DNA of 37,450 bases from an uncultured SAR86 cluster bacterium (GTDB lineage: Bacteria; Pseudomonadota; Gammaproteobacteria; Magnimaribacterales; D2472): positions 1-37,450 of the forward strand of contig CACBPT010000008.1 of the NCBI GenBank assembly GCA_902541245.1. The letters are read 5' to 3'. Positions 2,069 through 15,709 of the stretch are shown piece after piece. The first letter of the stretch is position 1, and each line of letters starts with the position of its first letter. Under the pieces are notes generated by a model that saw only the letters and a list, made by a program, of their open reading frames with translations, searched no databases and was not told where the DNA came from. A program made the position numbers and the translations under genes.

Positions 2069-3097
2069 ATGAAAAGATTACTGGATATCATGAATAATTT
2101 ATTTGGGTTAGTCATCGCTCTAAATATTTTTCATCAAATTGTCTCAAGCACAGGGTACCTTGCTTTAAGCATTCCAATCATCAAAATACTTTACTGGGCG
2201 TCAATCATCATTTTTGCAATAGAATTAATACTCCGAATAGGTAGTGAAAAAAAACTCTCTTTTTTAATTTCAATCGATACCCTTGTTCTAATTAATCAAC
2301 TCTTTTTTTCTGTATATGATTTAAGAATTTTAAGATTATTCAGACTATTCGATATTTTCAGCCAATCCAAATTTTTATCGCCTACAAATACTCTCATTAA
2401 GACAATTGTTAAACAAAAAAATGCTTTGCTGGGATCACAGATTATGGTGATTTCAATATTATTAATTGTTTCAACATTTATCTACTTTCTTGAATCAGCT
2501 GTCCAACCGGAAGTTTTTGGCAGCATACCCTCAACCATGTGGTGGGGCATAGCAACTCTTACAACTGTTGGCTATGGAGATGTAGTGCCAATGACAGATT
2601 TAGGCAAGTTATTGGCAAGCTTTACGATGCTAGTGGGTATTGGTATGTTTGCATTGCCGGCAGCAATTCTAGCCTCTGCATACTATGAGGAAATTCAAAA
2701 GAAAAACTTTTTGGTCAGCTTTGAAGCTATTGCTTCTGTGCCTCTATTTCAAGAGCTCCCAATTGGAGCTGTTGGAAAAATTAATGAAAAACTACAAGTA
2801 ATTCTTTTGGCAGAGCATGAAACAATATTTTCAAAAGGTGACGAGGCTGACTCTATGTTTATCATTGAATATGGCAAGGTCAAAGTTGAAATAGACAATC
2901 CAGTTTTTTTAGTAGCAGGAGATTTTTTTGGAGAAATGGGTCTGCTGGGTAATGCACCTCGAAATGCAACCATTACAGCCGCTGATGATACAAAATTACT
3001 TGAATTAACAAAAGCAGATTTAGAGGAACTTTCAGAAGAACATCCTGGGCTGTTTAAAGAATTAGAGTTAAGCGCTTCTTCGAGAACTTCTAGTTAA
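2069..3097 (+). CDS. 6TM voltage-gated K+ channel with C-terminal cyclic nucleotide-binding domain (MlotiK1-like)
   Basis: S4-like LRILRLFRLFDIF; selectivity filter TLTTVGYGD; C-terminal cNMP fold with FFGEMGLLGNAPRNATI phosphate-binding cassette. Confidence 0.93.
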   Translation: MKRLLDIMNNLFGLVIALNIFHQIVSSTGYLALSIPIIKILYWASIIIFAIELILRIGSEKKLSFLISIDTLVLINQLFFSVYDLRILRLFRLFDIFSQSKFLSPTNTLIKTIVKQKNALLGSQIMVISILLIVSTFIYFLESAVQPEVFGSIPSTMWWGIATLTTVGYGDVVPMTDLGKLLASFTMLVGIGMFALPAAILASAYYEEIQKKNFLVSFEAIASVPLFQELPIGAVGKINEKLQVILLAEHETIFSKGDEADSMFIIEYGKVKVEIDNPVFLVAGDFFGEMGLLGNAPRNATITAADDTKLLELTKADLEELSEEHPGLFKELELSASSRTSS

Positions 3098-4260
3098 TCA
3101 TCGCCCTTATCAGGGGCAGCAGAATGAGAAATATCTTTTGATTTTAAGCCATCTGAAGAATATTCAGATATGTCTAATGGATCTGTATTTTCGACGTAAA
3201 CCGAAGTAGAAGGGTAAGCAAATTCAGAACCATTGCTACGCACTATTTTAATTATTTCAAAAATTAGATTTTGTTTTATTTTAGAAAAATCAGTTAGTCC
3301 AACAGGGTCTGTATAACATAAAACACGCAGATCAATGGAGCTAGAAGCTAGCTCTTCAGTTCTGGCAAATGACTCTTGGCCAGGATTTATTGCAAATTCT
3401 TCGGAAGTATTGATGAAGGTTGAAATCTCCTCACAGATTGTTGCTAGCTGCTCTTGGGTAGTTGAATAGATCAAGTTTATCGTCCAGCTAATTCTGCGAT
3501 ACTCCATGTTGCCATGATTGATAACCTTTACATCGGAAAGATCTTTATTAGGAACAAGCATAGGAGCCGTATCAAACATTCTGACTAAAGTTGATCGAAA
3601 GCCTATATCTTCAACTATGCCATGCAACGAGCCAGGAACTTCAATTCGATCACCTGGCTGAAATCTATTTTCACCAATAATTAAAAGACCTGAGATTAAA
3701 TTTTTAAATAAATCTTGCGCACCAAGCGCTACAGCCACTGAAAACAACCCAAGACCTGCGACTAGGGGGCCAATCTGTATGCCAAAAATATCTAAGATTA
3801 TCCCAAGACCAATGATCCAAATAATGATTCGCGCAGCTCTTTCAAGCCACATGGTCATGGATCTAGTTAAAACCGAGCTAGAGGTAAAAATTTGAAAAAC
3901 TGGAGCAATACTATTAGCTAAGGCACTAAAAATTGTAAAGGCTATCATGGCTTTAACAAGATTAGTTGCAAAGGTATCAGCAACGCCCGATAAAGGTAGA
4001 TAAACCGTTATAAAATAAAGAGCAACCGTTATAGGTATATAGCCCAAGGGTTTTTTTAAAGATTCTAAAAGGACATCGTCAATCTCTGAGTCAGTATTGG
4101 CGGTGAGAGTTTCCAACCATTTTAGTACTCTGCCAACAAAAAATGCTCTCCCAATGGCGCCAGCTATAAATATCAACAAAGAAACAATAATTTCTGTGAT
4201 ACCAATGCCTAGGAAACCTTCATCCCAAACATTCATAATAATCTCTGTTAATCCTTCCAT
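3094..4260 (-). CDS. MscS-family mechanosensitive ion channel
   Basis: 388 aa; Gly/Ala-rich pore helix VAGLGLFSVAVALGAQDLFKNLISGLLIIGENRFQPGDRIEV followed by typical MscS beta domain. Confidence 0.92.
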   Translation of the reverse strand: MEGLTEIIMNVWDEGFLGIGITEIIVSLLIFIAGAIGRAFFVGRVLKWLETLTANTDSEIDDVLLESLKKPLGYIPITVALYFITVYLPLSGVADTFATNLVKAMIAFTIFSALANSIAPVFQIFTSSSVLTRSMTMWLERAARIIIWIIGLGIILDIFGIQIGPLVAGLGLFSVAVALGAQDLFKNLISGLLIIGENRFQPGDRIEVPGSLHGIVEDIGFRSTLVRMFDTAPMLVPNKDLSDVKVINHGNMEYRRISWTINLIYSTTQEQLATICEEISTFINTSEEFAINPGQESFARTEELASSSIDLRVLCYTDPVGLTDFSKIKQNLIFEIIKIVRSNGSEFAYPSTSVYVENTDPLDISEYSSDGLKSKDISHSAAPDKGDD

Positions 4261-5021
4261 AGTTCACTCAAATTATATGAAAACATCGTTGAAATAGACT
4301 CATCTGATTTCTCTGCCAGCATCGGTGGATCCGAGTCGTGAAAAGATGAATATTGCAACATTATTTTAAAATCTTTATTTACCTTAAAATCTATGGCTAG
4401 AATCATACTTGTTTTGTAGTCATTCTCAAAATCATCAAGACTTGGTTGGAAATAGATTGTTGGATTAAAAGAAATATTTTCAGCTAGTTCAAAAATATTG
4501 TGAAGATAAAAACCAAGGCGATCTGTCTGCATGGATTTTCCCACAAGATCTGTCTCATCTTCGCCCAATAAACCGGCGCCAAATCGAGCAGTTTTTGACA
4601 GCTCATACCTTAATCCACCGCCAAACACCGATCTTTTTTTATAATTTCGAAAGGGATTTTCACTGTACTGAGCAAAGATTTCCCAATTAACTTGCTCCTC
4701 TCCAACTAAAATGTATCTGCCGTGCATGAAGGTTGATTCATCCATGGTAATTTCATTAGATTTTCTCTCACTTTGCTGCAGAATAAGAAAAGACTCTGCA
4801 TTTTCAGAGTTATTATCAAACCTGAGTTGAAGTGAGTAATAGTCTCTGTCTCTGTTTCCTCTAGATGCGTCAAGACTAGCTGAAATATTAGTAAAAAATC
4901 CTATTTCTCCTTCTCGTCTTAAATCTTCAATGTTTACAATAGCTTGTGTTAGAACGTTTGAAGATAAGGCACTAAAAACAGCAACAAAGATAAATTGAAG
5001 CTTATTTATTTTGTGCAACAT
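4248..5021 (-). CDS. Predicted outer-membrane beta-barrel protein (DUF481/YdiY-like)
   Basis: Likely start at internal Met (MLHKINKLQFIFVAVFSALSSNVLTQ, signal peptide); alternating beta pattern, GGGLRYELSKTARFGAGL. Confidence 0.65.
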   Translation of the reverse strand: MLHKINKLQFIFVAVFSALSSNVLTQAIVNIEDLRREGEIGFFTNISASLDASRGNRDRDYYSLQLRFDNNSENAESFLILQQSERKSNEITMDESTFMHGRYILVGEEQVNWEIFAQYSENPFRNYKKRSVFGGGLRYELSKTARFGAGLLGEDETDLVGKSMQTDRLGFYLHNIFELAENISFNPTIYFQPSLDDFENDYKTSMILAIDFKVNKDFKIMLQYSSFHDSDPPMLAEKSDESISTMFSYNLSELWKD

Positions 5022-7185
5022 AAACTCCCTCCCATCCAGCAGGTGGCGGATTAGTTGTAAATTCATCTATCCTTAATTTCATATGCTCGTAGTATAGTGC
5101 AAGCTCTTTAGATGATGAGATTAATTCATTGATTAAAATCTTGGCTTGCTCCCAGTCTTGAGAACGATATTTATCCAAGAAATTCATATGTTTTGTCAGG
5201 CAATCATTGGTTAATTTTGCATTTGATTCAAAACACGTAAAAATTGTTTCTGCAGCTGTCTTACCTTTAACTGCAATTTTATCTATTTCAATGATTTGAA
5301 AAGCAGAATTATTTAAAAAAGTATTTTCTCCTATGATCATGCTCAGTCCGTAGTTAGATGACTGGCTTTCAAGTCTAGAAGCTAGATTTACAGCATCGCC
5401 TAATACTGTATAGTCGAAGCGCTTATCAGATCCCATGTTGCCTACGATGCATTCTCCAGAATTAATGCCAATGCCTATTTCCAACTTGAAATTTAGACTA
5501 TCTTTCATCTCTTCGTTTAATTGAGACAAAGCTTTATTCATAGCATGAGCTGCCTTAATGGCTAATTCGCGGTGGTCAACTTGATCAGTAGGCGCATTCC
5601 AAAAGGCCATAATGCAATCACCCATGTATTTATCTATGGTGCCACCATGATCCAAAATTGCATTTGATAAAACGGTAAGTAAACGGTTAATGAGTTGCGT
5701 AAGAGCTTCAGGATCATCTTTGTATTGTTCTGAAATTTTGGTGAAACCTCTTATGTCAGAAAATAAAAAAGTCATCTCTTTTCTTTCCCCCCCTAGCACC
5801 AATGCATCGCTTGACTCAGCTAGGCGATTGACCATTTCTGGAGATAAATATTGCGCAAAGGCACCTCTAACTCGACTGCGCTCAAGTTCAGTGAACAAGA
5901 AATTAAAGAAAGTAATGGCTATATATGCAATCAATGAAATGATTAAAGGTGAAATTGGGTCTACCAAAAACAGTTTTGATTTAAAGAAATAGTAGCTTGA
6001 ACCAATAATTCCACCAGAACCCACTACAAAAATACTTAATCCTCCAATCGGGCCTAAAGCTTGGATGGCAAGAGTGATAAGTAAAGCCAAAACTAATCCA
6101 GCAACAAACTCGGCTCCAAATAACCAATCTGGTCTTTGTAAATATTCGTTAGCAAAGATTTGTTGAATAAATTGAGCAATGACAGTTACTCCAGGAATAT
6201 TTTTTTCAACTGGAGTTGAGCGGAGGTCTAATAATCCGGAGGCTGAGGTACCAACCAATGCAACCTTACCCTCAAAAAATTCTGGTTCAATAACTCCTGA
6301 TAAGACATCAGCAGCTGAAACAGTCTGAATATTTTTTGATGGAGCAAAATAAATCCAAGCATTTCCGCTTGCAGAGGTTGGAATAGTTAGGGAGCCTAAT
6401 TTGACATGATTGATGCCGGTTTGCGATCCAAACGCTTCTTCACTCGAAGCGTTTGAAGATTTTATTTGATAAGTCGATGCCCCAATAGCAACTCTTGTGA
6501 TTTCCAATGCAAGGCTTGGAATCAATTGATCACCAACTCTTTCAAAAGTAGGCAGTTGACGAACTATTGCATCATTGTTACCTATGCTCATTGACCCGAT
6601 ACCTTGGGCAGCATCTTCTAAAGACTTGATATTACCTTGAACGCCAAGATAGTTTGCAAGAAATTGTTTTGGATCATCGCCTTGAGTCACCAATCCATAC
6701 TTATTGCTGATACTTGATGATTGATTTTGATTACTTAAGGCTTGACCCAGCACAACTGTGCCGTGATTTGCAATGGCATCTGCAAATAATTGATCATTGT
6801 TGGGAAGGGCATTTAATTCTTTGCTTAGAATTTCGTTTTCAGGGTAGAGTGAAATTAAATTCTGTGGATTAGATCTATCAGGTTCAGCAAAGACTATATC
6901 AAAGCCCAAAGCTGCAGCTAAATATGCTTGATTGGTTAATTCAGCTAAGGTATTCCGTGACCAAGGCCATTGACCAATTTGGGCAAGAGAATTGTCATCT
7001 ATGTCAATTATTACAACAGGATCTTCAGCATAAATATTTCTTGGTAAGATTTCTTGAAAAGCATCAAAAGAAAAATTTTGTAAGTTCGTAAAAATTTGAA
7101 AAGGATTGATTAAGGGTAAAAAACTAATCAACATAGCGAAACCAAGCAAACCATAACGGATAAATTGTTTGCTGCCCTTTTTCAT
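5002..7185 (-). CDS. CHASE2-domain class III adenylate/guanylate cyclase
   Basis: N-terminal TM + CHASE2 (VIIDIDDNSLAQIGQWPWSRNTLAEL...; GKVALVGTSASGLLDLRSTPV), C-terminal cyclase with FLFSDIRGFT, TIDKYMGDCIMAFWNAP, DYTVLGDAVNLASRLE. Confidence 0.95.
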   Translation of the reverse strand: MKKGSKQFIRYGLLGFAMLISFLPLINPFQIFTNLQNFSFDAFQEILPRNIYAEDPVVIIDIDDNSLAQIGQWPWSRNTLAELTNQAYLAAALGFDIVFAEPDRSNPQNLISLYPENEILSKELNALPNNDQLFADAIANHGTVVLGQALSNQNQSSSISNKYGLVTQGDDPKQFLANYLGVQGNIKSLEDAAQGIGSMSIGNNDAIVRQLPTFERVGDQLIPSLALEITRVAIGASTYQIKSSNASSEEAFGSQTGINHVKLGSLTIPTSASGNAWIYFAPSKNIQTVSAADVLSGVIEPEFFEGKVALVGTSASGLLDLRSTPVEKNIPGVTVIAQFIQQIFANEYLQRPDWLFGAEFVAGLVLALLITLAIQALGPIGGLSIFVVGSGGIIGSSYYFFKSKLFLVDPISPLIISLIAYIAITFFNFLFTELERSRVRGAFAQYLSPEMVNRLAESSDALVLGGERKEMTFLFSDIRGFTKISEQYKDDPEALTQLINRLLTVLSNAILDHGGTIDKYMGDCIMAFWNAPTDQVDHRELAIKAAHAMNKALSQLNEEMKDSLNFKLEIGIGINSGECIVGNMGSDKRFDYTVLGDAVNLASRLESQSSNYGLSMIIGENTFLNNSAFQIIEIDKIAVKGKTAAETIFTCFESNAKLTNDCLTKHMNFLDKYRSQDWEQAKILINELISSSKELALYYEHMKLRIDEFTTNPPPAGWEGVYVAQNK

Positions 7186-7305
7186 ATGGCAATTATAACC
7201 CCCTAGATCCTTTCCTTATTGAAGGAAGGAATTTAAATGATAAATTGTCATCTTTTCATTATAATGTTGTAAATTTTTAATAGATACTATAAATCTATTA
7301 GTGAA

Positions 7306-8637
7306 ATGAAGTGTAAATTATGGGCCATAACTTTGGCATACCTTATCTTTGCATGCATTGATTTGTCTGCTCAGAATGTAGCTCCCACAATATCTGATCC
7401 TCAGGCGCTTGAGGCTATTGAGAAGAAAAAAGAAGAGGTTTTTCAGCAACTTTTTAAGGATCCAACCAATCTTTCACTGCTATTTGAATATGCCAACTTA
7501 TCAATAATAGTTGGAGATTTAGAGGGGGCTATTGGAGTTTTTGAGCAAATGCTAATTTATGATTCAGCTCTTCCCAGGATAAGATTAGAGCTTGGCGTTT
7601 TATATTTTCGTTTAGGCGCCTTTGCCTTAGCAAATAACTATCTTAAAAGTGTGAAGGAATACGATCCACCGCCAGCAGTTCTTGATAAAGTCGATCAATT
7701 CTTAGCTGCCATAGAGGATGCAGAGAATCCGATTCAATGGCAACAAAACATCAGCATAGGTTTTAAAAGAACCACCAATGGTAACTCAGGCATCAACGCT
7801 GATTTTATTGAGATTGGAGATTTTCTCTTAGATTTAGATTCAAGCTCAAAAAGGAAGAGTGATCGATCACGGCTCATGAATTATTCATTAAATATTACTC
7901 ATGATCTCAAACACCCCAGAGGTGACAATGCTCAGTACTTTTTTGCATATGGGGCAGATCGTTTGGATACATTCTCTCAATTTGATATTCAAACAAATAT
8001 CTTTTCAGCTAGAAGGAACTTTAATCTAGATGAAAATTATTTTTCTTTTTTTAATTTAGAAGACGCTGTTTTTGCCCCTAACATTAATTTTCTTAGGGTG
8101 GTGCTAAATAGGGAAGAGATTTTGCAAAGTATCAGAACCTCATTGGACTATAGCGGCCAGTTAGACAATGGATCTTCGATGCTTTTTAGTTATTATAAAG
8201 ATGCAAAAGCCTTTGATACCAGTTCACAAAAAAATGGCCACTTAACTGGCGTCAGCTTTGGTCAAAGCTTTGTTGGCATGGGCTCTCAAGCTCTAATAGG
8301 ATATAAATTATCCATAGAAAACTATAGAGCAAATGCTAAATATGAATATTTTGAAAATTATGGGATTGAATTTAGTTATGCTCAGCCCCTAGGTAACAAC
8401 TGGCAGTTTTCTTCCAAATACTCTTTTCAGGATAAGACTCATGATGATGATTATCCTTTATTTGGCGATCGACATGATCAGCTGGAAGCGTTGAGATTTA
8501 ATTTACTTAAACCCTATGGCAGCTGTTGGTCATTCAATTTTGGCATGGTTTTTTCAGATAGCAAAAGTACCATCAACATATATAAAAGACGATCTAATAA
8601 TTTTACTGCACAAGTTAACTATCAATGTTTCAAATAA
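7306..8637 (+). CDS. TPR + C-terminal beta-barrel outer-membrane protein, Slam (type XI secretion)-like
   Basis: Signal peptide, N-terminal TPR-like helices (EYANLSIIVGDLEGAIGVFEQMLIYDSALPRIRLELGVLYFRLGAFALANNYLKSV), then ~300-aa amphipathic beta-strand region; directly upstream of a TbpB-barrel-like exoprotein. Confidence 0.7.
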   Translation: MKCKLWAITLAYLIFACIDLSAQNVAPTISDPQALEAIEKKKEEVFQQLFKDPTNLSLLFEYANLSIIVGDLEGAIGVFEQMLIYDSALPRIRLELGVLYFRLGAFALANNYLKSVKEYDPPPAVLDKVDQFLAAIEDAENPIQWQQNISIGFKRTTNGNSGINADFIEIGDFLLDLDSSSKRKSDRSRLMNYSLNITHDLKHPRGDNAQYFFAYGADRLDTFSQFDIQTNIFSARRNFNLDENYFSFFNLEDAVFAPNINFLRVVLNREEILQSIRTSLDYSGQLDNGSSMLFSYYKDAKAFDTSSQKNGHLTGVSFGQSFVGMGSQALIGYKLSIENYRANAKYEYFENYGIEFSYAQPLGNNWQFSSKYSFQDKTHDDDYPLFGDRHDQLEALRFNLLKPYGSCWSFNFGMVFSDSKSTINIYKRRSNNFTAQVNYQCFK

Positions 8638-8639
8638 TT

Positions 8640-11600
8640 ATGAAGATTGTAAATAAAGTTACATTATTTCTTTTGCTTTTGAGTGTTAACTCTGCTTTTT
8701 CTCAAGAACAAATAGGCGTCGCATCTGCGGTTAATAAAAACACAACCGATCTTACACTTGAACAAGAACGTAAGCTCATTGATGCCGGATATGAAATCAT
8801 CCAAAACCATACCATTGAAACTGATGAAATTGGGCGTGCTCAAATGTTGTTATTGGACGGTACAGCATTTTCGGTTGGCCCAAATTCAAGCGTTATCTTA
8901 GATAGATTTATTTATAACCCGGAGACTGCTGAAGGTTCACTTGAGGTTACGGCCAGGGGTCTACTGAGGATAGTTGGTGGCAAAGTTACTAAAAAACAAC
9001 CTGCGCTTATTCGTACTAATTCTGCCACGGTTGGCATTAGAGGCGGCATAGGTATTGTAAAAACTGAGGGCACACAAACCACAGCAACTTTTTTATATGG
9101 TGACGAAATGACGGTCACACCCAACTGCGTTGACCTAGATTCTTTTGGCGACCAATGTTCAGCCGATTATCAAACCACTGTCACCGAACCAGGTTTTTCT
9201 GTAACTGTGGAGGATGAAGACTCTGAACCAAGCGAGCCAGTTGAAGTCACCGAAGAAAGCTTGGATGAAATGCAAGAGGACCTGGAAGCTTCTGATGAAG
9301 AGCCTGAGGATTCTTCTTCAGCCGAAGCTGACGAATCCGAAAATGATCAAACTGAAGAGGATTCTTCATCACCTGAGGCTGAAGAATCCCCAAACGAAGA
9401 TGCTAACGAAGAAGAATCTGCACCAATTTCTAGTGATGAAACTGAGGATAATAATGAACCTATTGAGGAGACTCCTTCTGCAGAAGAACCAGCAGATACC
9501 AATGACGATGCAGGTGATTCCAGCGATGTAGATGTAGATGAGAGCATGCTTGATTCTTCAGGAGTGTCTGAGGCCTCATCGGATGTGGAACCAGAGGATC
9601 TAGGCACAGCAGATGCGTATGAGGCTGAGGTAGAGGCAGAAACTGTTGAAGCAGACGACATGAATGAAGATCCTACTGAGGATATCGGTGAGGCAGCAAC
9701 AGAAAGTACTCAGGAGGCGGCAGCAGAAGTTGCGCCCATTTTTCAAGTTGACAATGCCGATCCTAAAGAATCCATCGATGAAAATATTAATAATGAAGTT
9801 TTAGCTGCGTTAACTTTTATTAATCCCGGTGATCTGTCTTTTACAGTTTCAATTTCTGGTGATGATGCAGATTTTGTGCAGTTTGATGATGAGAGTTTTT
9901 CTATCATGCTTACAAAGGCATTAGATTATGAAACCCAAACCAGTCTTAATTTTGTTGTCACCATTGAATCAGAAAATGGAGACACTTCTGAAATTTTATT
10001 CGACCTTAGTGTATCCGATATAGATGAACCCGTAGATCTATCATCTGCACTGACCGCTGATTCATTTGCAGAAAATCTTGATGTAGGCTCGGTCATTGCT
10101 GAAACTTCAGCTATTGATCCAGAGGGGGGAGAAATTACCTATTCACTTTCAGGTGAGGGTAGTGATGATTTTGAAGTGGATGCGGATGGAAATATTTCCA
10201 TTAAAAATCCTTTGGACTATGAGAGCATCACCGAATACTCATTAACTCTCTCAGTTAGTGATGGCAATAATATTTCAACTCAGGAAATATCGATTGTTAT
10301 CGCAGATATTAATGAAGCTCCAGTGGTTTCAAGCGTTATTAACTCAGACTCATTTGCTGAGGATATATCCACCGGCTTTGCCATAGCATCTATAGATGCA
10401 ACTGATCCAGAGTCATCTGACATTACTTTTTCCCTTTCTGGCGACGGCAGCGACTTATTTAGCATTGATGCAGAAGGTAACATCACATTAGCTGGTAATT
10501 TTGATTACGAAACTAGTGCTAGTTATAACATTACCATTTCAGCCAGTGATGGTGAGAATATAACTACTTCTGAAATACTCATTTCAATAAGTGACGTCAA
10601 TGAAGCACCTACCTTATCAGCGGCAACTTCTGCAGCTTCATTTGCTGAAGATATCACCACAGGTTCTCAAATCGCTACCTTCACTGCAATTGATCCTGAG
10701 GCTGGAGATATGACATATTCTTTATCTGGAACTGGAAGTGAGCTTTTTTCCATCGATGCTGCAGGAAATATCACCCTCAATTCAAATTTTGATTTTGAAA
10801 CAGCATCAAGTTACAGCTTAACCTTGACAGTGACCGATGGTGTTCATCAAGTGTCTGAGGTCATCTCTATAACAATTACAGATGTTAATGAGGCTCCTAC
10901 TTCCTCTATTGCAATGACTTCAAGCTCTTTTTCAGAGGATGTTGCAGTTGGGACAACCATTGCTAATGCATCCGCAACTGATCCTGAGGGTGGCAGCATT
11001 ACTTACACTTTAACGGGCGAGGGCAGTGATAAATTTACAGTTGATAGCAATGGCAACATTTCACTCAGCGGTGCCCTGGATTATGAGACAGTCTCATCAT
11101 TTTCATTTACTTTGACCGTTAGCGATGGAGTTAATTCAACCTCTGAAGTAATTAGTTTCTCAGTGCTTGATGTTGTTGAGCTCTCCATTGCACTTGCAAG
11201 TAGCACCATCTCGATAAGCGAAGGCGCTGCTTCAGGATCTGCCGTCACAACCACCACGACAACCACCGATGGCAGTGGCACAGTGACCTACTCTTTATCT
11301 GGAACTGGCAGTGATAAGTTTAGTGTTTCCAGCGATGGCACCATCACCACCAACGGTTCTTTAGATTTTGAGACGACTTCATTATACTCCATCACTTTAA
11401 CGGCAACAGATGGTACCAGCACAGTGACAGAGACATTTACAGTCAATGTTACCAATGAAGTAATCAATGGCCTGTCTGTAACCCTTGCCAACAGTGGTGC
11501 GGCGATAGGGGAAAGTTCAAGCTCTGGTAGCAGCGTGGCCTCATCAAGCATCAACAATCCAGATAGCGATTCTGTGACTTACTCTTTAAGTGGGACTGGC

Positions 11601-14600
11601 AGCAGTAATTTTAGTGTCGATAGTAGTGGTAACGTTATCACCAATGCAACTTTAGATTTTGAAACTGCAAAAAGTTATTCCTTAACGCTCACGGCAACCA
11701 CAGGAGATACGACTGTCACCGATACCTTTACCGTCAATGTGGGCAATGTAGAAGAGCTTGAATCAGCGGTGCTGCGTTATTCTGCAGCTTATAATTCAGT
11801 TTCTAGAAGTGGCTTTAGCGCCACTGCTACCCGTGGTCCATCTGGATCAAGCCTCGCTGCATACACTTTAGAGCAAGTCGGTACTACCAATTCAACTGTC
11901 ATTACCAGTGTGGATGATACGTCTAACAACTATGTTCCAGTGGAAATCAATTCTGGAACCGTATTAAATTGGCGCTATTATTTCCCCATAGATACTTCAG
12001 GCAATGGGGAGTTTGCTTTTGCACCAAATTCTTCTGCACTAGATGGCAAGTATTACAGCCCTTTAGGCACGGCAGTAACTACCACCATAGCCAATGCTGA
12101 ATTCCTGACTGCAGGACGACTAGAAGGCGCAGAATATTGGTTCATGACCACTGATAAGGCAGGTGCTAGCATTAGCTATGACTCTCAAACAGGTATCAGT
12201 GGCACAAATGCATATTTTTATTTTGGTGGGGCTACGGGATCTTTGGATGTTGTCGAACCTATAATTGATGATGATTTCACCACTTACAGTAATGGTGGAG
12301 GCAATTCTTTGGGATACACCTCTAATTGTATTTGGGCAAATCTAGGTTGTAATAGCCTTCTTTTTTCCGAAGACTTTAGCCTGCTATGGTTTCACTACCT
12401 TGGGAGCGCCTTCTCACCTGCAGGCTCCGATCGGCTTCAATCAATTACCACCGCACTTACAAACGGAGCAACTGTAGTTGTGCTTTTAGGTGAACATTCT
12501 GGTGGTTGTTGTGGTGGAACAACTAGTTGGCTTAATGCCACCAATATATTTGCCGCACTGGGTTGGAGCGGCTACTCATCAAGTCATTTAAGTGGTTCTA
12601 CAAGCTACAGAGATAATAGACACCCCATCACTAATCCATCCACTTCATACCCAAATTCATGGGTGCCCTACAGCAGTATGCCAACCCATATTTCTTGGGC
12701 TGCAGCAGGCTATTTAGACATTCCAAGCGTATGTACTGGCTTAACCGCAAATAACTCTCTATTTATCTGTGATCCATCAGCAACTGGATTGGCGGGCACA
12801 TTCATTGGATATGCTGATTTAAACGTAATCAATTACTGGAACAACTCCGATGGTACTGCGAAGAGCGTGGGCGCTAGTAGTTGCCCAACCCAAGTCAACT
12901 CTGAGCCCTGTGATAATACACCTATGTGGGATTGGTTTGCTGAGGTAGCAAAGGCAGGAGGCGGTAACGCAACCACATCCACCTATAACCTCTATGAGGA
13001 TCAAGTCACTATAGCAGGTAAGGTCTACACCGATGCTATCTTTCAAACTCATATTGACAGCTATGCCACTAACAAGCGAGTATATGGTTTTCTGGTCATT
13101 CCGATTGAAAACTTTGCTGCCAGTGGAACCAGCAACGATTATTTTTACCCTAACTTTATTCCAACAACGCTTTGGTCCTATGGCGATGTGGGGCACGATT
13201 ATTGTTTAGGCATGTCTAGTAATAGCGCCTCTGACTGTAATACCTATGACAATTACTATGACTTTTCTAGCATCGCCCTTTCTGAAGCAACTAACAGCGG
13301 CACTAAAAGGATTGATACATCCAGATTCACTGGGTCAGCCAATGATTTTCCTGAAGGTCAATCCATGTGGTGGCAGGTGCTAAATCCAAGTGGTACCTTC
13401 AATAAAGGAGTTGGGCTTTGGGCACAAATTTCTTTTAAAGATTCATACGACGGAGCATCCGGTAGCACCACTCGAGATGATCAAGAAAGTTTGCTTAATG
13501 TGGTTATTTCTAGCATTGATTATCGAAAAAATGATACGACTCGATACTCAGCTACAGATACTGGGTTGGGCATGGATGGTTATCATTATTGGTCCTATCA
13601 AGGTGCAACCAATGCCGATAATGATGGCTTAGGCATTAATTATGGTACTTCTCCAGTTGAGTGTGCAACCTCTACGGACACCGGTTGCTTTTGGGGTACC
13701 GACTCTGCCGAAACATTTCGTGGCGCCATGATCACATCCTCTGATCCATATAAGTCAGGTGATATGACTTTGGGAGTTAATTATAACTCCAATAATGACA
13801 CCTTCAGCACCGGCACCTTTAATCAGTCCATTGTTCAGGTAGATGCAAAAGACTCAGCTAGTGGTAATTACATGGTAAGTTTACAAGCAACTAATTTTAG
13901 ATCTACTTTTTATTCATCGAGTGCTACGGGTTACAGCGGATTTTTCAGCGGTATTTTAGAATTTGATGTCAGTGGCACAGGTAACTCTCAGCTTTCTTCT
14001 ATTCGCTCAAGTAGCACGCTTGCAACCTTTACGTTTGATGCCACCAACGATGATGTGCAAGTGGTGGTTCCGATGACCATTAGCGCTGCTCCATCAAATA
14101 ACTATACATCTAATTGGAGCACGGTGGATACCGGCTCTATGACTCTAAAGTTTGGTGATGCCACCAATGATGCAGCAAAATCAGCTTACATTTCACACGA
14201 AGTCTTTGGTGCTGAGATTCAAGACGATGGGGCGCAAATTGATGGAACTTCGGGAGGTTCAAATAATCTAGCCGGGGTTATGGTTTCCTATAACACTTTG
14301 GAAAAAGAGGACTCTGATCTATTTCACACAGGCGGCAATGATTCCATGCCGAACACTGCTTATTCGACTTGGGGTTTTTGGGCCATGAGCGCGGCTGATA
14401 TTTCTCCCAATGCTGGCACGCAAAATGCTTCAGTTCACTTGGGTACATGGGTCGGCGGTGAAGTGGTCGATCAAAGTGAGATACCAACCTCAGGCTCAGC
14501 TTCGATGAGTGGGGCTGCGGTGGTGAATGTGGCTTATCGTTACAATCAAACCGGCACCAACTATGATGTGCATAAATACACCACTAGCGCCGATGTGGCG

Positions 14601-14927
14601 GCAACCTTTAATTGGGGCTCCAGCGGCTATTCTGGAACCTTAGCCTTTACCAATTTTGATGATAAAAATCCTATTGTCTCAAACGCTGGCTTTACATCCT
14701 TTAATGTTGCCATCACTGGCACAACCAACACTTACACAGGCAGTTCAACTGACAGTCTCAGTAATTCTTGGCTGGGTGGGGCATCGGTTGCCGGTGCTTT
14801 GTATGGTGGCTCATCACCGGATGAGAGTGGTGGTAGAGTGAATGTCAATTTATATAAATCAGGCGATACAGGCACAGCAGGCGCTAATGATTTTTACATG
14901 GCTGAGGGAATTTATCTTGTTGACTAG
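8640..14927 (+). CDS. Giant secreted FecR-domain / acidic linker / 7x cadherin-like repeat protein with C-terminal TbpB-like barrel
   Basis: Likely start MKIVNKVTLFLLLLSVNSAFSQ (signal peptide, no lipobox; ORF as given starts at 8625); FecR domain (ALIRTNSATVGIRGGIGIV); Glu/Asp/Ser-rich linker; 7 repeats with [LF]D[YF]E; C-terminus GTWVGGEVVDQSEIPTSGSASMSG ... GALYGGSSPDESGGRV. Confidence 0.9.
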   Translation: MKIVNKVTLFLLLLSVNSAFSQEQIGVASAVNKNTTDLTLEQERKLIDAGYEIIQNHTIETDEIGRAQMLLLDGTAFSVGPNSSVILDRFIYNPETAEGSLEVTARGLLRIVGGKVTKKQPALIRTNSATVGIRGGIGIVKTEGTQTTATFLYGDEMTVTPNCVDLDSFGDQCSADYQTTVTEPGFSVTVEDEDSEPSEPVEVTEESLDEMQEDLEASDEEPEDSSSAEADESENDQTEEDSSSPEAEESPNEDANEEESAPISSDETEDNNEPIEETPSAEEPADTNDDAGDSSDVDVDESMLDSSGVSEASSDVEPEDLGTADAYEAEVEAETVEADDMNEDPTEDIGEAATESTQEAAAEVAPIFQVDNADPKESIDENINNEVLAALTFINPGDLSFTVSISGDDADFVQFDDESFSIMLTKALDYETQTSLNFVVTIESENGDTSEILFDLSVSDIDEPVDLSSALTADSFAENLDVGSVIAETSAIDPEGGEITYSLSGEGSDDFEVDADGNISIKNPLDYESITEYSLTLSVSDGNNISTQEISIVIADINEAPVVSSVINSDSFAEDISTGFAIASIDATDPESSDITFSLSGDGSDLFSIDAEGNITLAGNFDYETSASYNITISASDGENITTSEILISISDVNEAPTLSAATSAASFAEDITTGSQIATFTAIDPEAGDMTYSLSGTGSELFSIDAAGNITLNSNFDFETASSYSLTLTVTDGVHQVSEVISITITDVNEAPTSSIAMTSSSFSEDVAVGTTIANASATDPEGGSITYTLTGEGSDKFTVDSNGNISLSGALDYETVSSFSFTLTVSDGVNSTSEVISFSVLDVVELSIALASSTISISEGAASGSAVTTTTTTTDGSGTVTYSLSGTGSDKFSVSSDGTITTNGSLDFETTSLYSITLTATDGTSTVTETFTVNVTNEVINGLSVTLANSGAAIGESSSSGSSVASSSINNPDSDSVTYSLSGTGSSNFSVDSSGNVITNATLDFETAKSYSLTLTATTGDTTVTDTFTVNVGNVEELESAVLRYSAAYNSVSRSGFSATATRGPSGSSLAAYTLEQVGTTNSTVITSVDDTSNNYVPVEINSGTVLNWRYYFPIDTSGNGEFAFAPNSSALDGKYYSPLGTAVTTTIANAEFLTAGRLEGAEYWFMTTDKAGASISYDSQTGISGTNAYFYFGGATGSLDVVEPIIDDDFTTYSNGGGNSLGYTSNCIWANLGCNSLLFSEDFSLLWFHYLGSAFSPAGSDRLQSITTALTNGATVVVLLGEHSGGCCGGTTSWLNATNIFAALGWSGYSSSHLSGSTSYRDNRHPITNPSTSYPNSWVPYSSMPTHISWAAAGYLDIPSVCTGLTANNSLFICDPSATGLAGTFIGYADLNVINYWNNSDGTAKSVGASSCPTQVNSEPCDNTPMWDWFAEVAKAGGGNATTSTYNLYEDQVTIAGKVYTDAIFQTHIDSYATNKRVYGFLVIPIENFAASGTSNDYFYPNFIPTTLWSYGDVGHDYCLGMSSNSASDCNTYDNYYDFSSIALSEATNSGTKRIDTSRFTGSANDFPEGQSMWWQVLNPSGTFNKGVGLWAQISFKDSYDGASGSTTRDDQESLLNVVISSIDYRKNDTTRYSATDTGLGMDGYHYWSYQGATNADNDGLGINYGTSPVECATSTDTGCFWGTDSAETFRGAMITSSDPYKSGDMTLGVNYNSNNDTFSTGTFNQSIVQVDAKDSASGNYMVSLQATNFRSTFYSSSATGYSGFFSGILEFDVSGTGNSQLSSIRSSSTLATFTFDATNDDVQVVVPMTISAAPSNNYTSNWSTVDTGSMTLKFGDATNDAAKSAYISHEVFGAEIQDDGAQIDGTSGGSNNLAGVMVSYNTLEKEDSDLFHTGGNDSMPNTAYSTWGFWAMSAADISPNAGTQNASVHLGTWVGGEVVDQSEIPTSGSASMSGAAVVNVAYRYNQTGTNYDVHKYTTSADVAATFNWGSSGYSGTLAFTNFDDKNPIVSNAGFTSFNVAITGTTNTYTGSSTDSLSNSWLGGASVAGALYGGSSPDESGGRVNVNLYKSGDTGTAGANDFYMAEGIYLVD
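9756..11755 (+). repeat. Seven tandem cadherin-like protein repeats, period 95-97 aa
   Basis: [LF]D[YF]E codons start at 9921, 10212, 10500, 10788, 11076, 11361, 11652 (intervals 291, 288, 288, 288, 285, 291 nt); D[IV]NEAP linkers in the early repeats. Confidence 0.9.
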
Positions 14928-14974
14928 TTTAAAAGTTGTAAAAAAGAAACATATCTTTATGATGAGGTGCTTAT

Positions 14975-15709
14975 ATGAATAGTTTTGTAGAGTTCTTTCT
15001 TACTATAAGAAACAGCAAAGTCTTCAGTACCATCGTCATTGCTGTTATTGTTGCCTCTGCCGTGTATGCGGGTGTCAGCTCTTATAACATAGCTCCTGAA
15101 TACACCATTTATCTAGATCTTTTTGACTATGCGATCACCTTATTTTTTCTCATAGAGATTATCATTCGGATAATTTCAGAGCGCTCATTGAAGAAATTCT
15201 TTAGCGATGGGTGGAATGTGTTTGATTTTTTAATTGTGACCATATCCCTGGTACCAATTAACAATGTTGAAAGTGTCTTTGTAGCAAGGCTCCTCAGAAT
15301 TATTCGAGTCCTACGAATCATAACAGTGGTACCAGCGTTTCGTCATATCATTGATTCTTTAATTAAAACCATTCCAAGGGTCGGCTTTATTGCGCTGCTC
15401 ATGTTTATCTTTATGTATGTTTGGGGCGCAATTGGCACCATGTTTTTTGGGAGAGTCGATCCAGAAAACTGGGGTAACATAGGCCTGGCCTTGATTACCC
15501 TTGTTCAAGTTGCAACTTATGATGATTGGGCTGCAATCATGGGGCAAGTCACAGAAGTTTATCCATTTGCGTGGATTTTCTTTGTGTCTTTTATCATTAT
15601 CAATGCTGTCATACTTTTAAATATGGTCATAGGCGTAATCGTTGATGTTATGACAGGTGGCAGTGGAATCGATGATTTAATTAAAGCAGAAGAAAATTCT
15701 ACGGATTAG
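14975..15709 (+). CDS. Single-domain voltage-gated cation channel (BacNav/NaChBac-like ion transporter)
   Basis: S4 RLLRIIRVLRIITVVPAF; pore LVQVATYDDWAAIMGQV; S6 FIIINAVILLNMVIGVIVDVM. Confidence 0.93.
   Translation: MNSFVEFFLTIRNSKVFSTIVIAVIVASAVYAGVSSYNIAPEYTIYLDLFDYAITLFFLIEIIIRIISERSLKKFFSDGWNVFDFLIVTISLVPINNVESVFVARLLRIIRVLRIITVVPAFRHIIDSLIKTIPRVGFIALLMFIFMYVWGAIGTMFFGRVDPENWGNIGLALITLVQVATYDDWAAIMGQVTEVYPFAWIFFVSFIIINAVILLNMVIGVIVDVMTGGSGIDDLIKAEENSTD

Follow-up and report, generated by a model that had tools for sequence, protein, structure and literature searches.

What could be the target of a membrane-bound nucleotide cyclase whose gene lies close to that of a potassium channel with a cyclic-nucleotide-binding domain (CNBD)? 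The question is raised by a locus of an uncultured SAR86 cluster bacterium, found at positions 1 to 37,450 of contig CACBPT010000008.1 (GenBank assembly GCA_902541245.1; this whole stretch of 37,450 nucleotides is the window referred to below), a contig that forms part of a 951-kb bin with 58% completeness. We find that a CHASE2 class III cyclase and a six-transmembrane (6TM), MloK1-like K+ channel occur together in the SAR86 genomes surveyed, remain linked and have been lost together. It is very probable, in our judgement, that the locus would act as a self-contained cyclic AMP (cAMP) pathway with K+ conductance as its output.

An earlier note, made from the letters alone, had read seven genes in this locus: a 6TM K+ channel with an apparently intact cyclic nucleoside monophosphate (cNMP)-binding domain, an MscS channel, a DUF481-like barrel, a CHASE2 nucleotide cyclase, a Slam-like TPR/barrel protein, a FecR/cadherin exoprotein of about 2,100 amino acids and a BacNav-type channel. 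All seven are intact open reading frames (ORFs) at the places it gave, and Pfam confirms CNBD, ion-channel, MscS, DUF481, CHASE2, cyclase, TPR, FecR and cadherin domains in their products. The descriptions of the MscS channel, the DUF481 barrel, the cyclase and the exoprotein stand; so, judging from its Pfam matches, selectivity filter and ligand-binding cassette, does that of the K+ channel. The note's core idea, that the CHASE2 cyclase acts on the CNBD channel encoded next to it, is strongly supported by co-occurrence, linkage and joint loss. The seven-part circuit drawn around it does not survive, the MscS channel, the voltage-gated channel and the giant exoprotein varying independently of the cyclase–channel pair.

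Co-occurrence and linkage of the cyclase and the K+ channel

Profile searches covered 200 genomes of the SAR86 order and, in a second survey, 100 genomes of the host family (numbers with G, L, g and f are our handles for genomes, loci, genera and families). The cyclase occurs in 50 of the 200 order genomes, belonging to 6 of 22 genera, and 47 of these 50 also carry the K+ channel, within about 2 kb of the cyclase or, at the scrambled contig end of G035, 2.9 kb from it. The channel is missing from the remaining three (G080, G166, G193) because the contig ends first, that of G166 being only 2,250 bp long. No intact K+ channel was found in any cyclase-free genome among the 200. Of the 100 genomes of the host family, 19 have the cyclase, one of them only in part (a spurious 18-bit match in G025 was rejected), and in 17 the channel adjoins it; the two that have a cyclase and no channel (G080, G098) and the one with just a fragment of the channel (G068) are again contig-end cases.

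Which of the other genes belong with this pair? The TPR-barrel protein is encoded in all 19 cyclase genomes of the family, on a separate contig in G015, and its gene is linked to the cyclase in all three families with the locus; DUF481 accompanies the cyclase at all SAR86 loci read that are long enough to include it. MscS is absent between DUF481 and the K+ channel at L168, L169, L171, L174, L304, L306, L308 and L309, as at the loci of genus g16 and family f2, and the linkage of cyclase and channel persists without it at the first four of these. At L175 the channel has taken a new place and orientation, still within the cluster. The f3 loci read have neither the giant exoprotein nor a TetR-type regulator found in many relatives, and keep barrel, cyclase, DUF481 and channel. 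Since these four genes are linked across families while the others drop out, the order-wide core consists of the TPR/beta-barrel protein, the cyclase, the DUF481 barrel and the K+ channel. Particular lineages have added the giant protein and the TetR regulator to it; MscS and the voltage-gated channel adjoin the unit without belonging to it and are still present where the cassette is missing. The conserved linkage in relatives that the earlier note had named as its test thus exists across three families for cyclase, CNBD channel and TPR-barrel protein, but not for MscS, the voltage-gated channel or the giant. An apparent joint decay of cyclase, barrel and channel by frameshifts in G168 (L301) was not used as evidence; the frameshifts are likelier to be assembly indels, because PurU and other neighbouring genes are frameshifted too.

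Conserved residues of the two proteins

The cyclase has an N-terminal CHASE2 domain and a C-terminal catalytic domain in which D477, D523, K519, T593, N600 and R604 are all present and invariant in 28–29 SAR86 sequences. We take D477 and D523 to be the metal-binding aspartates, K519 and T593 to form an adenine-type pocket, and N600 and R604 to be the catalytic asparagine and arginine. A Lys/Thr pair is typical of adenylate specificity in class III enzymes, and with the complete Asp/Asn/Arg/Lys/Thr set the protein is predicted to be a CHASE2 class III adenylate cyclase.

The K+ channel matches Ion_trans, Ion_trans_2 and the cNMP-binding domain PF00027 (1.5e-18). Its closest solved chain is MloK1 (2zd9; E 2.4e-46), with which the alignment starts ahead of S2 and runs through the whole CNBD; the two are colinear from S6 into the CNBD. 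The filter, TTVGYGD, is invariant in all SAR86 orthologs that cover it, S4 reads LRILRLFR with three spaced arginines, and the phosphate-binding cassette is GDFFGEMGLLGNAPRNAT; every SAR86 ortholog that spans the region of the FGE...R motif keeps it, even those from loci at 56–57% identity. With a 6TM core, a K+ filter and a C-terminal CNBD bearing the FGE...R cassette, the protein is predicted to belong to the prokaryotic cyclic-nucleotide-gated (CNG) K+ channels of the MloK1 type.

Other cyclases and readers of cAMP

Searches with PF00211 over the 100 family genomes returned this cyclase only (18 genomes, one each), and class I cyclases were absent from the 19 genomes searched, the E. coli control being detected. 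PF00027 over the same 100 genomes returned this K+ channel and two regulators, one in G047 and one in G083, both without the ligand arginine; no CRP was found among them. Two other families contributed 23 genomes with the cyclase, one of them (G103) a single contig with 95% completeness; in these the channel is the only CNBD protein, bar an FNR-type protein in G165. These three CRP-like exceptions were rejected as cAMP receptors, as their CNBDs are without the ligand arginine and two have FNR-type cysteines. The CRP-family output of the Sinorhizobium meliloti type of CHASE2 cyclase pathway was likewise not found in the SAR86 genomes searched. In the context of the SAR86 genome, little else that is recognisable would be able to read cAMP.

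Joint losses

In three genomes (G037, G065, G093) the site is closed, with the order CitMHS–MscS–(voltage-gated channel)–PALP, and the K+ channel, DUF481, cyclase, TetR regulator, barrel and giant are all gone. MscS, which elsewhere sits between channel and cyclase, is kept at these sites. A fourth genome, G010, has a cassette-free site that retains DUF481 besides. A tree of five flanking genes disperses the four cassette-free genomes, and its well-supported branches require four changes. The cassette has therefore been lost at least three times within the genus, each loss removing genes on either side of the retained MscS; G010 may represent a loss or an original absence.

Could the genes simply travel and disappear as one cassette or island, the channel not being the target of the cyclase at all? 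Such hitch-hiking would fit the patchy distribution over 6 of 22 genera and the loss of several genes together, and the losses are few. We nevertheless consider it very improbable: the losses are discontinuous, striking genes on both sides of an MscS gene that stays; the linkage survives reordering and the disappearance of MscS; even at 56% identity both proteins keep their catalytic or ligand-pocket residues; and the searches detected no further intact cNMP receptor.

Proposed mechanism

Bacterial cAMP usually acts on gene expression. The distribution described above suggests that in SAR86 it acts directly on ion flow instead, and we regard it as likely that cAMP signalling here has no transcription-factor arm and runs from a dedicated envelope-sensing adenylate cyclase to a single receptor, the CNG K+ channel. 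An envelope signal, most likely delivered by the outer-membrane TPR/beta-barrel protein together with the DUF481 barrel, would reach the periplasmic CHASE2 domain, which would switch the membrane-bound class III cyclase to make cAMP. The cAMP would then bind the CNBD of the adjoining MloK1-type channel and alter how readily K+ passes through it; K+ content, membrane potential or both would thereby respond without a transcription factor. We infer cAMP as the nucleotide, the gating and its sign, the direction of K+ movement, the barrel as sensor and the stimulus; whether K+ is gained or lost would be set by the membrane potential and by the K+ outside the cell. In some lineages the giant FecR/cadherin protein may be a ligand, cargo or regulator of the sensor.

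Several points weigh against this picture. No CpdA-type phosphodiesterase that would end the signal scored above the cut-off, and the receptor searches, which found no other intact cNMP receptor, are blind to cAMP receptors of another fold. The residue following the ligand arginine is asparagine (RNA) and not the serine of MloK1 (RSA); threonine at this place is typical of cGMP sites, and the channel, which has neither, may prefer cAMP or cGMP. Voltage may also gate the channel, since S4 has three arginines. The model of the proposed sensor barrel is weak: it has TPR helices and about 13 strands at low confidence, with a predicted local distance difference test (pLDDT) score of 54. Finally, the losses are read from bins that are incomplete, and exchange of empty alleles between lineages keeps some residual probability, though the flanking genes do not group the cassette-free genomes.

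The regularly spaced S4 arginines and the RNA cassette also lend themselves to a different account. The channel would then respond chiefly to voltage, with a CNBD that is constitutive or has a role in assembly, and the cyclase would either have a cAMP receptor that has escaped recognition or produce a nucleotide other than cAMP. That all orthologs with the region conserve FGE...R, that the CNBD is colinear with that of cAMP-binding MloK1 and that channel and cyclase occur one-to-one make this account very improbable.

Neighbouring genes

The coordinates of the genes are collected in Table 1. The K+ channel gene is convergent with MscS, the 3' ends of the two overlapping; upstream of MscS, the cyclase and DUF481 ORFs overlap on the minus strand, and the TPR-barrel and giant genes are transcribed divergently from them out of the 120-bp intergenic region. 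DUF481 likely starts at an internal methionine near 5021, with the signal peptide MLHKINKLQFIFVAVFSALSSNVLTQA. A gene for a TetR-type regulator (201–212 amino acids) separates the intergenic region from the cyclase in most relatives of genera g1 and g8 and at some loci of f2; this genome and G059 have lost the gene by deletion but still have the intergenic region. This region holds an imperfect ATGA...TCAT dyad.

Table 1. Features of the SAR86 locus in window coordinates
Feature	Position	Strand	Evidence and remarks
MloK1-like 6TM K+ channel with CNBD, proposed effector	2069..3097	+	Pfam, MloK1 alignment, ortholog alignment
MscS/YnaI-like mechanosensitive channel, neighbour outside the unit	3094..4260	-	Pfam
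DUF481 outer-membrane barrel protein	4248..5066	-	Pfam 9e-15; ORF overlaps cyclase 3' end
CHASE2 class III nucleotide cyclase	5002..7185	-	CHASE2 3e-50, class III cyclase 2e-23 (Pfam)
Divergent intergenic region, 120 bp	7186..7305	.	Comparison with relatives
TPR + outer-membrane beta-barrel protein, Slam-like architecture	7306..8637	+	TPR by Pfam; structure model
Giant exoprotein, lineage-specific accessory	8625..14927	+	Signal peptide, FecR 63-159, acidic linker, cadherin repeats
Voltage-gated 6TM channel, flanking gene	14975..15709	+	Ion_trans 1e-40; S4 RLLRIIRVLR; filter TYDDWAA

The label 'Slam-like' given to the TPR-barrel protein refers to architecture only. The TPR is found and a barrel is modelled at low confidence, but neither the Slam TPR (PF24575) nor the SlipAM/DUF560 barrel matches the window protein, and a Thalassospira homolog reaches PF24575 at 8e-5 only, below the cut-off. 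The solved barrels nearest to the pLDDT 54 model are those of CymA. Membership in the Slam family failed the sequence test and was rejected. Second copies of the TPR-barrel gene, each with a divergent TetR-type gene and without cyclase or channel, occur in G080 and G051 (L114:1-3068, L115:1-1355); the L114 copy is accompanied by a FecR gene, and the two represent a paralogous surface module.

The giant exoprotein has 2100 amino acids, with a FecR domain (7e-6), 6–8 cadherin repeats and a C-terminal region of about 1,060 amino acids with no recognisable fold (model pLDDT 28). A TbpB-type eight-strand barrel suspected there by eye found no support in Pfam, PDB sequences or structural comparison of the pLDDT 28 model, and was dropped. 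The ECF sigma factor and TonB receptor of a FecR anti-sigma system are not among the ten genes examined between 174 and 17419 of the window. In G051 (L029:10409-19501) two successive giant FecR/cadherin genes follow the TPR-barrel gene, an apparent duplication.

The voltage-gated channel and the proposed circuit

The 'BacNav' label of the voltage-gated channel is doubtful, because the filter TYDDWAA has an aspartate pair. T[YF]DDW is conserved in 28 of 28 SAR86 orthologs checked, and this channel does not have the NaChBac-type Glu-Ser filter (TLESW). Aspartate at position +1 from the high-field-strength (HFS) site marks Ca2+ selectivity, as in engineered CavAb and in CatSper1 (PMC10120453). 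The filter predicts a channel permeable to Ca2+, not Na+, and one that may represent, with a filter of the CavAb-like class, a Ca2+ channel native to bacteria. Homologs with the filter TLEGWPD occur in other SAR86 genera (L087–L089).

Of the 100 family genomes, 35 have the channel, many of them lacking the cyclase, and it is kept at the empty sites of G037, G065 and G093. It adjoins the giant gene, yet is also present without it. Four instances of an apparently unlinked channel (G023, G031, G041, G051) were set aside, being due to contig ends or to a long region with duplicated giant genes.

These observations bear on the circuit that the earlier note had envisaged, in which contact or osmotic input activates the cyclase, the K+ channel shifts membrane potential and voltage-gated cation entry follows, tied to display of the adhesin and with MscS as the osmotic part. 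All the genes are adjacent here, and the giant and the voltage-gated channel remain together even after moving to another contig (G015, L247). As a unit, however, the circuit is already contradicted, and we hold it to be very unlikely. Sites without the cassette still have MscS (L153, L154, L160 and L164) and the voltage-gated channel, and several loci with cyclase and K+ channel have no MscS between DUF481 and channel. Voltage-gated entry as a part of the circuit fares no better, the channel being present in many genomes without the cyclase and entry of Na+ unsupported by its filter. Nor can adhesin display be the general point of the signal, because f3 loci without the giant keep cyclase, barrel, DUF481 and channel.

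Origin of the sensor half and comparison with known systems

Where might the association of sensor and channel have come from? Pairings of cyclase and channel outside SAR86 were sought among the best 80 CHASE2-cyclase loci. None of the 60 non-SAR86 loci, mostly of Alphaproteobacteria, has a 6TM–CNBD channel; a FecR-domain gene lies within three genes of the cyclase in 23 of them (Pfam confirmed examples), and a TPR-barrel relative is found in eight. FecR genes are enriched near the cyclase, at 24 of 301 near genes against 1 of 414 farther genes of the same loci (Fisher p about 1e-8). The association of CHASE2 cyclase, FecR protein and TPR-barrel is thus an old proteobacterial one, and a K+ channel, the likely output of this envelope-sensing arrangement in SAR86, appears specific to that group. 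At one alphaproteobacterial locus (L227:4474-7768) two stand-alone CNBD proteins, of 146 and 142 amino acids, are encoded after the CHASE2 cyclase, with a FecR gene nearby; here too a CHASE2 cyclase has a CNBD partner, though of another kind.

The open-access literature yielded no paper on the pairing of cyclase and channel in SAR86, subscription papers lying outside the search. The closest sensory parallel comes from S. meliloti, where the CHASE2 cyclases CyaD1, CyaD2 and CyaK raise cAMP via the outer-membrane barrel NsrA (PMC13001267, PMC7529298). Both systems have a CHASE2 class III cyclase and an outer-membrane beta-barrel protein, in SAR86 a proposed partner; the output there is the CRP-type regulator Clr, whereas the SAR86 genomes searched have no CRP and a K+ channel in its place. 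The Burkholderia operon of a CHASE2 histidine kinase and FecR–LysM proteins (PMC5192318) likewise joins a CHASE2 sensor to a FecR-domain envelope protein, but its output is a histidine kinase with response regulator, with no cyclase and no channel. Slam and type 11 secretion (PMC8406197, PMC12282271) share with the SAR86 barrel protein an N-terminal TPR, a surface-type neighbour gene and perhaps, going by our low-confidence model, a barrel of some 13–14 strands; the SAR86 protein differs in having no Slam Pfam match, and its giant neighbour in having no recognisable TbpB-type barrel.

On the output side, MloK1 and SthK share with the SAR86 channel the 6TM fold, a TVGYGD-type filter and a C-terminal CNBD with intact phosphate-binding cassette. 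The SAR86 channel differs in its tie to one dedicated cyclase, in being the only intact cNMP receptor found and in the three spaced arginines of its S4. In the synthetic PAC-K, a photoactivated cyclase and SthK are enough for a K+ current and electrical control of a cell (PMC6218482). The same logic, a cyclase driving a cAMP-gated K+ channel, would be realised in SAR86 by a natural pair with an envelope sensor.

Implications

To our knowledge, the cellular function of prokaryotic CNG K+ channels is unclear, and such channels are heavily used as structural models. If the proposed pathway is true, a prokaryotic CNG channel would gain a cognate cyclase and a physiological context, and the pair would be a natural bacterial two-protein switch from messenger to membrane potential or to K+ uptake. 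SAR86 bacteria are among the most abundant of the surface ocean, and electrical or ionic signalling in this group would for that reason be ecologically broad.

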